From contig NZ_JAFKLZ010000001.1 in NCBI RefSeq assembly GCF_017304615.1, forward strand, positions 868,001-932,000: DNA of 64,000 nucleotides, written 5' to 3'. Under the pieces are notes generated by a model, which made no database searches, was not told where the DNA came from, and saw only the letters and a list, made by a program, of their open reading frames with translations. Source of the stretch: Sphingomonas sp. Lineage in GTDB: Bacteria > Pseudomonadota > Alphaproteobacteria > Sphingomonadales > Sphingomonadaceae. A program made the position numbers and the translations under genes. Below, piece by piece: positions 35,952 through 41,214 of the stretch (the stretch's first letter is position 1; each line of letters begins with the position of its first letter).

Positions 35952-37001
35952 TTGGCCAAGCCAGCCGCCAAAAAGCCGTCCGCACCGCCCGCCACGCCCA
36001 ACCGGGAACGCCCGGACGAGCCACAGCCATACAAGGCGTCGAAGGCCGAACTGCTCGATTTCTACAAGCAGATGCTGCTGATCCGCCGGTTCGAGGAAAA
36101 GGCCGGGCAGCTCTACGGCTTGGGATTCATCGGCGGCTTTTGCCACCTGTATATCGGGCAAGAGGCGGTCGCTGTCGGATTGCAGTCTGCGCTCGACGGC
36201 GAGAAGGATTCGGTGATCACCGGCTATCGCGACCATGGCCACATGCTCGCCTATGGCATCGATCCCAAGGTCATTATGGCCGAATTGACCGGGCGCGCCG
36301 CTGGCATTTCGAAGGGCAAGGGCGGGTCGATGCACATGTTCTCGACCGAGAAGAAGTTCTATGGCGGCCACGGCATCGTCGGCGCGCAGGTGTCGCTCGG
36401 CACCGGTCTGGCATTCAATCACAAGTACAGCGAGGATGGCGGCGTCTGCCTCGCGTATTTCGGCGATGGTGCGGCGAACCAGGGCCAGGTGTACGAATCG
36501 TTCAATATGGCGGAGCTGTGGAAGCTGCCGATCGTCTATGTGATCGAGAATAACCAGTACGCGATGGGCACCAGCGTGAATCGCGCGTCGTCGGAGGATC
36601 AGCTCTACCGCCGCGGCGAATCCTTCCGCATTCCGGGCATCCAGGTCGATGGCATGGACGTGCTGGCGTGTCGTGGTGCCGCCGAGGAAGCGTTGGCTTG
36701 GGTCCGGGCGGGCAAGGGTCCGATCATCCTGGAGATGAAGACCTATCGCTATCGCGGCCATTCGATGTCCGACCCGGCCAAGTATCGCAGCCGTGACGAA
36801 GTCCAGGCGGTGCGCGAAAAGTCCGATCCGATCGACCATGCGAAGAAGCTGCTCGAGGAAATGGGCGTCAAGGAGGACGAGTTGAAAGCCGTCGAGGCCG
36901 AAATCCGGAAGCAGGTCAACGAAGCGGCGGACTTCGCCGAGCAGACGCCCGAGCCGGAACCCGGTGAGCTGTATACCGACGTGCTGGTGGAGTCGTACTG
37001 A
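35952..37001 (+). CDS. pdhA: pyruvate dehydrogenase E1 component subunit alpha
   Basis: Alpha chain of the heterotetrameric E1 of pyruvate dehydrogenase: decarboxylates pyruvate with thiamine pyrophosphate. The 349-residue protein has [25 protein letters not shown], the phospho-loop-like [13 protein letters not shown], and the TPP motif [20 protein letters not shown] with [13 protein letters not shown] 35952 starts the frame. The stop overlaps pdhB (TGATG). The first 30 residues are Pro/Ala/Lys-rich. Confidence 0.95.
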
Positions 37002-38407
37002 TGCCGATCGAGATCAAGATGCCGGCGCTGTCGCCCACGATGGAAGAAGGCACGCTCGCCAAGTGGCTCGTCAAGGAAGGCGATACCGTCAAGTCCGGCG
37101 ACATCATGGCCGAGATCGAGACCGACAAAGCGACGATGGAATTCGAAGCTGTCGACGAAGGCACGATCGCGCAGATCGTCGTGCCGGAAGGCACCGACAA
37201 CGTGAAGGTCGGCGCGGTTATCGCGTTGCTCGCGGCTGAGGGTGAGGATGCCGCTGCGTCGGCGCCTGCCAAGGTCGAGAAAGCCGAGGAGCCTGAGGTC
37301 AAGGAACAGGCGGCAGAGAGCGGCGCGCCCGAACCGCACAAGGTCGAGACCGGTGCGCGGCAGATGTTCGAAGCGGCCAAGCGCGACGCCGAGGTCGTCG
37401 ACCCCGCGATCCCGACGGGCACGGAGATGGTCAAGACGACCGTCCGCGAGGCTCTGCGCGATGCCATGGCCGAGGAGATGCGCAAGGACCCGCGCGTCTT
37501 CGTCATGGGCGAGGAAGTCGCGCAATATCAGGGCGCGTACAAGGTCACGCAGGGCCTGCTCGACGAATTCGGCGACAAGCGCGTAATCGACACGCCGATC
37601 ACCGAATATGGTTTCGCCGGGGTCGGCACCGGCGCGGCGATGGGCGGTGCGCGACCGATCATCGAGTTCATGACGTTCAACTTCGCAATGCAGGCGATCG
37701 ATCACATCATCAATTCGGCGGCCAAGACCAATTACATGTCCGGTGGCCAGATGCGCTGCCCGATCGTGTTCCGTGGTCCCAACGGCGCCGCGAGCCGCGT
37801 CGGTGCGCAGCATTCGCAGAATTACGGGCCGTGGTATGCCAGTGTCCCCGGCCTGATCGTGATCGCGCCCTACGATGCGGCGGATGCCAAGGGCCTGTTG
37901 AAGGCCGCGATCCGCAGCCAGGACCCGGTCGTCTTCCTCGAAAACGAACTGCTCTACGGCCGCAGCTTCGACGTGCCGGCGCTCGACGATTACGTCCTGC
38001 CGATCGGCAAGGCGCGGATCATGCGCGAGGGCAAGGACGTGACGATCGTCAGCTATTCGATCGGCGTCGGCGTCAGCCTGGAAGCGGCGGACGAGCTGGC
38101 GAAGGAGGGGATCGAAGCCGAGGTCATCGACCTGCGCACGCTCCGCCCGCTCGACAAGACGACGGTGCTTAAGTCACTCGCCAAGACCAACCGCCTGGTT
38201 GTCGCGGAGGAAGGCTGGCCGACCTGCTCGATCGCGTCCGAAGTCGCGGCGTTCGTGATGGAGGAGGGGTTCGACGACCTCGACGCCCCGGTTCTGCGCG
38301 TCACCGATGAGGACGTGCCGCTGCCTTATGCGGCGAACCTGGAGAAACTTGCGCTGATTTCCGCCGACAAGGTGGTGAGTACAGTGAAGAAGGTGTGCTA
38401 CCGCTGA
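37001..38407 (+). CDS. pdhB: pyruvate dehydrogenase E1 beta with N-terminal lipoyl domain
   Basis: Beta chain of the E1 of pyruvate dehydrogenase, 468 residues. The N-terminal 80 residues are a lipoyl domain ([20 protein letters not shown], lipoyl Lys43 in ETDKATMEF), then an acidic/Ala linker and the E1-beta domain ([55 protein letters not shown]). This arrangement is standard in alphaproteobacteria. E2 and E3 genes do not follow; a divL-like gene begins 30 bases later. Confidence 0.95.
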
Positions 38408-38437
38408 TCCGACTTCGGTTCGGATAGGGAGGCGGCG

Positions 38438-40774
38438 CTGAGTTCTGGCGCATTAGGGCTAGTTGGAGCGGGTCTCGCGCTGGCGATCGTCGGCGCGTGC
38501 TGGATTCTCTATACCGGCCTGCGCGCGAAAGCGTCTGCGCGTGCGACGGCGGTCGGCAACGACAAGCTTGCGGCGTTACTGGAGTCGTCGCCCGCTCTGG
38601 CCATGATCGTGCGGCCTGATGGGCGGATCGACCTCTCCGATCGGCTGGTCGACTGGCTCGGTCTGTCATCGCCGCCGCGGTTCCTGGCGGACATGGCGGG
38701 TCCCGGCGCCGGATTGACGGGCGACGATGCCGGCGCGCTCGGCGATGCGGTCACGGCGGCGCAGAAGGCGGGCGAGCCGTTCGCCATGGCGATCCGGCCG
38801 CAGGGTTCGTCGCGCATGCTGACCGTACAGGGCCAGCGGGTGCCGCGCGAGGCCGGGGTCGATGGCGGGGTGGTCGTGTGGTTCTTCGACGCCACCGAAA
38901 CCCAGGCGCGGATCGGCGAATTGCTGGGCCAGACCGCGCAACTGACCGATGCGTTCGCGGCGCTGAAGGGGCTGATCGAGGCCGCGCCCCTGCCGATGTG
39001 GTATCGCGGGCCGGATCTGCGGCTGGCGATGGTCAATTCGGCCTATGTTCGTGCGGTTGAGGGGCAGGATGCGCGCGATGTCGTGACGCGGGGGGTCGAA
39101 CTGATCGAAGGGGCCGGCGCTGGCGGTCCCCTCGCCAATGCGGGTCGGGCACGCGATACCGACCGGCCGTCGATCGCCAATGCCCCCGCGACGATCGGCG
39201 GCGCGCGCAAGATGCTGCGCGTCCATGACGTGCCGCTGCCCACCCCGCCGGGCGGCGTCGCCGGTTTCGCGATCGACATCGACGAGCTCGAACAGGCGCG
39301 AAGCGGAATCAAGCGCTTCGCCGAGGCGCAAAGGGCGATGCTCGACCGCTTGTCCGCCGGAGTCGCGCAATTCGCCGCCGATCGCTCGCTCAGCTTCAGC
39401 AACGAACCCTTCATGCGCATGTTCGCGATGCGCGGCGAATGGCTGGCCGACCGGCCCGAATTCGATCGCGTGCTCGAGCGCATGCGCGAGGCCAAGCGCT
39501 TGCCGGAGGTGCGCGATTTTCCGGGCTGGAAAGCGGAGCGGCGCGACTGGTTCCTGGCCGCGACCGGCGCGATAGAGGAAAGCTGGACGCTGCCCGGTGG
39601 CGTGCACCTTCGTGTGGTCGGGCATCCGTTGCCCGATGGCGGGTTGCTGCTGATCTTCGAGGACCGCACCGAACAGGTCCAGCTAGCCAGCGCGCGCGAC
39701 ACCTTGCTTCGCGTGCGCACGGCGACGTTCGATAATCTGTTCGAGGCGATCGGCGTGTTCGCGGGCGACGGGCGGCTGCAGATCTGGAACGACAAGTTCC
39801 GCACGATCTGGGGGTTCGAAGAAGAGTTCCTGGCGACGCACCCGCGCATCGATTCGCTGGTCGCCGAAGGGTCAGGGCTGCTCGCGCAACCCAATCGGGC
39901 GGGCGTCATCGCCGAGCTGGTCCGGTCGGCGGCTGTAGGCCGGACGCAGCGGGCGGGTCGCGTCGCCTTTGCCGACGGGCGTCATTTCGAATTTGCCGGG
40001 GTGCCGCTGCCCGACGGCAACGCGCTGTTCACGATGCTCGATATTTCCGACAGCCGCCGCGCGGAACAGGCGCTGCGGGACCGCAACGAAGCGCTGGAGG
40101 CGGCAGATCGGATCAAGACCGCGTTCGTCGCCAGCATGAGCTACGAACTGCGCACCCCGCTGACCTCGATCCGCGGGTTCGCCGAGATGATGGGCGAGGG
40201 CTATGCCGGCAAATTGCCCAAACAGGCCGACGATTACGTCAACGCAATCCTCGAATCGGTCGCGCGTCTGTCGGCGTTGGTCGACGATGTCCTCGACCTG
40301 ACCGAAGGCGAACAGAAGATCGATCGCGCGGATGTCGATCTCGAAACGCTCGCCGCCGCCGCGGCCGAAGCCGTTGCGCCCGCCGCCAAGCGCAAGTCGA
40401 TCGACTTTGCCATCGAAGTCGCACCCTCGACGGGAACGGTGAACGGCGACGCGAAGAAGCTGCGCGAGATGATCGAACACTTGCTCCGTCACGCCGTCGC
40501 CGGGGTTGGCGAGCGGGGACGCGTGTTGCTGCACACCGACGGCGACGCGAAGGGCGCGCGGATCGTCGTGTCGGACGATGGCGCGGGGATGGACCAGGCC
40601 GCGGTCGATCGCGCGTTCGACCGTTTCGCCGAACCGGCTTTCCGCGATGAGTCGCGCGCACTGGGGCTTGGCCTGCCGATCGCCAGGCAAGTCGCGGAGG
40701 CGCACGGCGGCACGATCAAGCTGCTCTCCGAACCAGGATCAGGCACGCTGATCACGGTCGAGTTACCGCGATAG
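38438..40774 (+). CDS. divL: DivL-like atypical histidine kinase (Tyr in place of His)
   Basis: A 778-residue membrane sensor-like protein. A transmembrane helix (LGLVGAGLALAIVGACWILYTG) is followed by several PAS-like domains (about 45-110, 160-260, 290-390, 420-530). The HisKA helix reads SMSYELRTPLTSIRGF: the usual His is Tyr569. The HATPase domain has DDGAGM and GLGLPIARQVAEAHGG. Caulobacter DivL is similar in size and layout and also has Tyr at this site; there it controls CckA and so CtrA. The ATG at 38603 would delete the membrane helix; CTG 38438, six bases after AGGGAGG, is proposed instead. It overlaps tsaE. Confidence 0.85.
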   Translation: MSSGALGLVGAGLALAIVGACWILYTGLRAKASARATAVGNDKLAALLESSPALAMIVRPDGRIDLSDRLVDWLGLSSPPRFLADMAGPGAGLTGDDAGALGDAVTAAQKAGEPFAMAIRPQGSSRMLTVQGQRVPREAGVDGGVVVWFFDATETQARIGELLGQTAQLTDAFAALKGLIEAAPLPMWYRGPDLRLAMVNSAYVRAVEGQDARDVVTRGVELIEGAGAGGPLANAGRARDTDRPSIANAPATIGGARKMLRVHDVPLPTPPGGVAGFAIDIDELEQARSGIKRFAEAQRAMLDRLSAGVAQFAADRSLSFSNEPFMRMFAMRGEWLADRPEFDRVLERMREAKRLPEVRDFPGWKAERRDWFLAATGAIEESWTLPGGVHLRVVGHPLPDGGLLLIFEDRTEQVQLASARDTLLRVRTATFDNLFEAIGVFAGDGRLQIWNDKFRTIWGFEEEFLATHPRIDSLVAEGSGLLAQPNRAGVIAELVRSAAVGRTQRAGRVAFADGRHFEFAGVPLPDGNALFTMLDISDSRRAEQALRDRNEALEAADRIKTAFVASMSYELRTPLTSIRGFAEMMGEGYAGKLPKQADDYVNAILESVARLSALVDDVLDLTEGEQKIDRADVDLETLAAAAAEAVAPAAKRKSIDFAIEVAPSTGTVNGDAKKLREMIEHLLRHAVAGVGERGRVLLHTDGDAKGARIVVSDDGAGMDQAAVDRAFDRFAEPAFRDESRALGLGLPIARQVAEAHGGTIKLLSEPGSGTLITVELPR

Positions 40775-41214
40775 TGCGTCTCGCGACGCCGCAGGACAGC
40801 GAAAATTTGGGCGCGCAACTCGCCACCGTCGTTCGTGCCGGCGATGTCGTCACCTTGTCCGGACCGCTGGGTGCCGGGAAGACGAGCATTGCGCGCGGCC
40901 TGCTCGCGGCGCTGGGGCTGGCCGAGGAAGCGCCGTCGCCGACCTTCGCGATCGTCCAGCCCTATGCCCCGCCCGAGACGCGATTGCCGGTCATGCATGT
41001 CGACCTCTACCGGATCGAGGATGTGCAGGAGATCGACGAGCTAGGGCTGGACGAGGCGCGAGCGGACTCGGTCCTGCTGATCGAATGGCCGGAGCGCGCG
41101 CCGGGGCGCTGGCCCGACGCGCTGGCGCTGAGCCTGGACTTCGCACCGGATGGCGGTCGCGCCTTGACAGTTGAGGTGCCCGCGGCATGGGAAGGGCGAT
41201 GGCCCCTGACATGA
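40774..41214 (+). CDS. tsaE: tRNA threonylcarbamoyladenosine biosynthesis ATPase TsaE
   Basis: ATPase of the complex that makes t6A at position 37 of tRNAs reading ANN codons, with TsaB and TsaD. The 146-residue protein has the P-loop GPLGAGKTS, SPTFAIVQPY, and the DLYRIEDVQEIDELGLDE Walker-B-like region with LLIEWPERA. Start GTG 40774 shares a base with the divL stop (TAGTG), and the stop overlaps the next gene (ATGA). Confidence 0.95.
   Translation: MRLATPQDSENLGAQLATVVRAGDVVTLSGPLGAGKTSIARGLLAALGLAEEAPSPTFAIVQPYAPPETRLPVMHVDLYRIEDVQEIDELGLDEARADSVLLIEWPERAPGRWPDALALSLDFAPDGGRALTVEVPAAWEGRWPLT

Follow-up and report, generated by a model that had tools for sequence, protein, structure and literature searches.

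A conserved CTG codon as the probable translation start of divL behind pdhB in Sphingomonas

In one Sphingomonas lineage, the orthologue of the cell-cycle regulator DivL is very probably translated from a CTG codon that follows a strong Shine-Dalgarno sequence and lies 30-31 nt behind the stop codon of pdhB. This reading emerged from the analysis of a 64,000-nt stretch of a Sphingomonas sp. draft genome of eight contigs, hereafter the window, in which the proposed start occupies positions 38438-38440; all features given below by window position lie, like this codon, on the forward strand. Comparison across genomes supports the CTG start well and suggests that initiation does occur at this codon. 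What appears to be new, and open to experiment, is the conservation of this CTG together with its association with the junction between pdhB and divL; titles and abstract openings in the open-licence literature yielded no report of a CTG start of divL.

The open frame of divL spans positions 38408-40774 of the window sequence and ends with a TAG stop codon (40772-40774). With the CTG counted as residue 1, the coding sequence (38438-40774) specifies 778 residues matching the Pfam families PAS_7, HisKA, and HATPase_c. Pfam, hydropathy, and an AlphaFold2 model together delineated an N-terminal membrane helix, four PAS-like modules, a DHp dimerisation domain, and a catalytic/ATP-binding (CA) domain. 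The most hydrophobic 19-residue stretch (residues 6-24; 38453-38509) forms the membrane helix inside a predicted helix spanning residues 3-49. PAS-like modules 1 (residues 53-151; 38594-38890), 2 (187-280; 38996-39277), and 3 (308-409; 39359-39664) reflect our own reading of the AlphaFold2 secondary structure, and the model agrees with Pfam on PAS module 4 (437-535; 39746-40042; best PAS_7 stretch 432-544), DHp (537-622; 40046-40303; HisKA 560-625), and CA (631-777; 40328-40768; HATPase_c 670-777). The model was built from 32 sequences with a mean pLDDT of 76 and a pTM of 0.31, and its spatial domain arrangement is uncertain.

Caulobacter DivL (4q20) was the best PDB sequence match of the protein (E 7e-33; runner-up 5e-25) and, conversely, a search of the window's own genome with the 4q20 DivL core ranked divL first (4e-34; runner-up 1e-28), which makes the two reciprocal best hits. 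Together with the Pfam domains and the predicted helix, this result bore out the initial annotation of the gene as a transmembrane, multi-PAS DivL homologue; by sequence, it is the Sphingomonas orthologue of DivL. A structure search, in which multi-PAS and phytochrome chains outranked 4q20 (rank 14), was left out of this identity argument. Matches to divL were retrieved at E 1e-150 from 292 of 295 genomes of the genus and at E 1e-40 from 133 of 240 genomes at the class level. Within the named genome collection, the best matches came from Sphingomonas MAGs (82-85% protein identity) and from a MAG titled only Proteobacteria bacterium (86%); S. mali, whose divL starts with ATG, and S. asaccharolytica both reached 79%. 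One divL of the same genus (G026:C1:3573623-3575942) is broken into two frames with an overlap of ~10 bases, by either a frameshift or an assembly error.

In Caulobacter, DivL is a pseudokinase anchored in the membrane; it recognises the response regulator DivK in its phosphorylated form and adjusts the activity of CckA, the kinase heading the CtrA cascade. Its Sphingomonas orthologue may serve the same DivK/CckA function, and the genome encodes a DivK-like protein that shares 52% identity with its Caulobacter counterpart (E 4.6e-34; next 1.2e-14, in a one-way search). Brilli et al. (PMC2877005), however, describe the DivJ-PleC-DivK system of Sphingomonadales as lost or degenerate and mention a divK-like gene whose phylogeny is anomalous. 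As described for Caulobacter crescentus DivL (4q20; PMC4211667), the window protein has several PAS domains, a tyrosine instead of histidine at the H-box, and a predicted N-terminal membrane helix, placed within residues 1-53 in Caulobacter (PMC4211667). In the 4q20 alignment, the two residues that dock DivK are the same in the window protein (R553 aligns with R572, and T557 with T576), whereas Y562, H579, and A601 are replaced by F581, Y600, and T622, respectively.

The initial annotation had also pointed to Tyr569, in the motif SMSYELRTPL, as the replacement of the phospho-acceptor histidine known from Caulobacter DivL, and rightly so: this residue (codon TAC, 40142-40144) aligns with Caulobacter Tyr550. 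All 80 distinct genus orthologues from the fetched loci carry tyrosine at the H-box position, as do the 28 best-scoring further loci among the class matches (L125-L152, which include one locus of the same family). A histidine in close relatives would have pointed to a sequencing error, and none was found in any orthologue read. According to PMC4211667, this tyrosine is conserved throughout DivL homologues, with alanine in Magnetospirillum. Tyr569 is, on these alignments, an ordinary mark of the DivL family and no novelty.

Unlike this residue, the start of the gene is unusual. In the window, ATG, GTG, and TTG are absent in frame from the upstream stop to codon 56, ATG 38603 being the first. 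The initial annotation had proposed CTG 38438 as a non-AUG start restoring the membrane helix, six bases behind the motif AGGGAGG; the motif is there (38426-38432, core GGAGG 38428-38432), at a spacing of five bases. Its duplex energy, computed against a 16S tail supplied from general knowledge, is -10.8 kcal/mol, a value matched or beaten at 1.7% of the 2066 CTGs in the window. On both strands, GGAGG precedes CTG by exactly 5 nt at 3 of these 2066 sites, divL included, and by 4-7 nt at seven, all chance rates referring to the 64 kb window only. The arrangement GGAGG-[C/T]GGCG-CTG recurs at divL in four other, species-level genomes (the MAG contigs L038, L039, and L041, and L091 from the 3.40 Mb single-contig assembly G135), with energies of -10.8 to -14.7 across the five and divL DNA 79-84% identical among them. 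Save for one GTG within a Shine-Dalgarno sequence (L038), no ATG, GTG, or TTG precedes the helix in any of the five. Invariance of the CTG weighs little on its own, as 7 of the 43 CTG codons compared in the window are unchanged across the five genomes. In favour of the start, codons 2-40 of divL differ among them mostly at third positions (12 first, 7 second, and 25 third). RNA folding around the CTG was unremarkable (z -0.29).

We further compared N-termini across the fetched loci, a subset of the 292, which supplied 79 distinct orthologues with a usable 5' end (10 loci were skipped, namely nine duplicates and one that was too short). A hydrophobic helix precedes the equivalent of residue 56 in all 79 (best 19-residue mean hydropathy at least 2.06), and the window is unique among them in having no ATG, GTG, or TTG from 30 codons before to three codons after the helix start. 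The GGAGG-N5-CTG arrangement in five genomes supports the CTG as the start that restores the helix, as originally suggested.

A CUG with an upstream Shine-Dalgarno sequence does not necessarily serve as a start, as exemplified by Caulobacter dnaA, where such a codon bound the 30S subunit in vitro and was unused in vivo (PMC8443254). It is conceivable, if rather improbable, that translation of divL begins elsewhere in the helix, at a TTG at codon 6 or 8, at codon 15 (CTG or GTG), or at several weak sites, with CTG 38438 being a leucine codon or part of the 5'-UTR. Such TTGs at the helix start do occur in four of the five CTG genomes, with energies of only -1.5 to -2.5, and the window has TTA and CTA at codons 6 and 8. 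In the window, the CTG of codon 15 reaches -12.0 and so outscores CTG 38438; its counterparts in the relatives range from -5.6 to -6.8 (CTG, three genomes) or are GTG (-6.3, L041), and a start there would truncate the helix. The L038 GTG inside the Shine-Dalgarno sequence has an energy of -2.9. None of these internal codons is common to all five genomes with a good Shine-Dalgarno sequence.

Initiation at ATG 38603 (38603-38605, residue 56), which would yield a soluble DivL lacking its membrane helix, is considerably less probable still. This is the first canonical start codon in frame, and annotation programs restricted to ATG, GTG, and TTG are expected to pick it. However, it falls within the first strand (residues 53-58) of PAS-like module 1 in the AlphaFold2 model, so that the module would be cut, and it has hardly any Shine-Dalgarno sequence (-1.5). 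The helix upstream, which the initial annotation had correctly noted would be lost with this start, is kept in 79 of 79 orthologues, and none of them begins at the equivalent position without it. Very little also speaks for DivL arising from pdhB by readthrough, frameshifting, or fusion without a start of its own: the pdhB stop is only 30-31 nt away and no strong hairpin separates the two genes, but this stop is retained in all five genomes, and because three of them have the 30-nt and two the 31-nt spacing, the frame of pdhB relative to divL differs between them. An assembly or sequencing error, for which we found no support beyond the eight-contig draft status of the source, is practically excluded because the same CTG occurs in four further genomes whose divL DNA is 79-84% identical, the single-contig G135 among them.

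The upstream gene pdhB (37001-38407) encodes pyruvate dehydrogenase E1 beta with a lipoyl domain (Pfam Transket_pyr, Transketolase_C, and Biotin_lipoyl), and its stop lies 30 nt before the CTG. It is located upstream of divL in ten genomes of this lineage. Three of the CTG genomes have 30 nt between this stop and the CTG and the other two have 31 nt; the intervening stretch is therefore not one conserved frame. The fold and gap comparison of the ten genomes showed the intergenic stretch of the window (38408-38437, 30 nt) to be without a strong hairpin; folding energies of the five CTG gaps ranged from -4.7 to -8.9 kcal/mol (-0.16 to -0.29 per nt). Some CTG genomes show a short stem immediately behind the pdhB stop, which is unconvincing in others. 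The five relatives with an ATG start (L040, L042, L043, L094, and L097) have gaps of 136-138 nt, counted to the ATG, that contain a hairpin of -73 to -77 kcal/mol (-0.54 to -0.56 per nt). The inverted repeat spans 24 nt with 92% complementarity in L040 (L040:215-294), where we take it to be REP-like, and 34 nt with 74% in L042. The relatives' ATG aligns with GCG 38435 of the window, one codon ahead of the CTG, and in all of them but L040 it is followed by a GTG as an alternative possible start.

The protein tree nests L040, which has ATG, in the CTG group, where it pairs with L091 (CTG) as its sister with support of 100/99, and the nucleotide tree concurs. By parsimony, start codon and gap would have changed together twice. 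In the simplest history, the short-gap CTG form would have arisen once, followed by a return to ATG and a hairpin insertion in L040; a single CTG origin is favoured because repeated origins would need the same junction to form several times. The return to ATG rests on one short MAG contig of 4,972 bases.

On the other side of divL, tsaE (40774-41214; Pfam TsaE) overlaps divL by one base, the final position of the divL stop. The initial annotation had taken the genes downstream as typical of divL, which held for tsaE, located there in 33 of 33 Sphingomonas loci (L038-L070). The gene pdhB is not a general neighbour, as no match to it was detected within up to 6 kb upstream in any of the 27 other Sphingomonas loci (L044-L070). 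In the class loci tsaE was found downstream in 9 of 28, within the 1.5 kb examined, and is a common neighbour of divL and no strict mark of it. The names amgK, murU, addB, addA, and trxA for the following genes come from the initial annotation; the first three were confirmed as syntenic conserved ORFs, addA and trxA as conserved ORFs only. In L091, a CcdA/CcdB toxin-antitoxin pair assigned by Pfam lies between divL and tsaE (L091:3760-4470); similar ORFs, recognised by likeness without family assignment, occupy this position in L038, L040, L041, and L042, the L043 gap is sized like that of L091, and the window and L039 have no such insert.

We also called start codons across the genus with a crude Shine-Dalgarno-based caller, an unvalidated tool applied to related species. 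In L038-L070, divL calls were non-ATG in 14 of 32 loci, or 11 of 29 without the CTG-group members L038, L039, and L041; the controls gave 5/33 (tsaE), 0/33 (amgK), 3/32 (murU), and 1/31 (addB, plus three uncalled). A stricter rule left 7/32 for divL, with 4/33, 0/33, 3/32, and 4/31 for the same controls, and a caller with a lighter penalty, run without control genes, returned 54 non-ATG calls and one failure among 79 divL orthologues. As a lead, divL may start with GTG or TTG more often than these four genes under the crude caller. In a scan for other window genes without a canonical start, made against two relatives, overlapping and antisense ORFs blurred the outcome, and no base rate results; one flagged stretch that was inspected is covered by two ordinary ORFs.

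To our knowledge, few non-canonical starts on bacterial regulators are well documented, and the divL CTG would be a further conserved case. At its coding start the window has no canonical codon and the TTG or GTG alternatives of relatives are weak; CTG and strong Shine-Dalgarno sequence are conserved in five genomes, with one nested genome (L040) having ATG. A strong Shine-Dalgarno sequence combined with a poor start codon keeps regulators low in Streptomyces (sigR, GTC; PMC5472188) and Staphylococcus aureus (ccpN and cvfC1; PMC13009471). Like divL, sigR codes for a regulator, starts at a non-canonical codon, and belongs to a gene pair, which in its case is co-transcribed, and its start is repressed by IF3; unlike divL, it encodes a sigma factor, starts with GTC, and has been tested experimentally (PMC5472188). 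The S. aureus genes ccpN, cvfC1, and infC share with divL a conserved weak start behind a strong Shine-Dalgarno sequence, and differ in their AUA/AUU codons, their Firmicutes host, and their proof by profiling; reporters of ccpN and cvfC1 (with citZ) yielded ~10% of AUG output in poor medium, and ccpN up to 30% in rich medium (PMC13009471). Starts mutated to GUG or UUG tend to be compensated by stronger Shine-Dalgarno sequences (PMC5622118), and CUG initiation in bacteria has been revealed by profiling for 4 of 26 new Salmonella proteoforms (PMC11005335).

In the mechanism we propose, the strong Shine-Dalgarno sequence five bases upstream would position the ribosome on CTG 38438, presumably decoded with fMet by initiator tRNA. 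Because the 30-31 nt gap lacks a strong hairpin, divL is probably read from the pdhB transcript, and the weak CTG would probably keep the amount of DivL down, a limit on expression that the initial annotation had put forward as possible. A pattern search found one initiator-type tRNA-Met (L164:699-775, G000 contig C6) with the anticodon stem TCAGG/CCTGA, in which an A-U pair presumably replaces the first of the three G-C pairs, a change that might conceivably relax the choice of start codon; the pattern may miss copies. A broader evolutionary scenario is offered tentatively, as a minority possibility: divL would have lost an insulated 5' region and come to lie behind pdhB, with the CTG kept either to offset stronger operon transcription or to couple DivL to pyruvate dehydrogenase translation. 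Start strength and insulation would then co-evolve, the return of the hairpin coinciding with that of ATG in L040, and weak starts may recurrently keep DivL scarce in Sphingomonas.

Gene finders limited to ATG, GTG, and TTG miss the CTG, and DivL is probably annotated here without its membrane anchor. A CTG conserved on a cell-cycle pseudokinase, with a nested relative that has ATG, offers a natural comparison of start strength with regulator dosage. In these Sphingomonas bacteria, the conserved CTG may help set the quantity of the DivL regulator.
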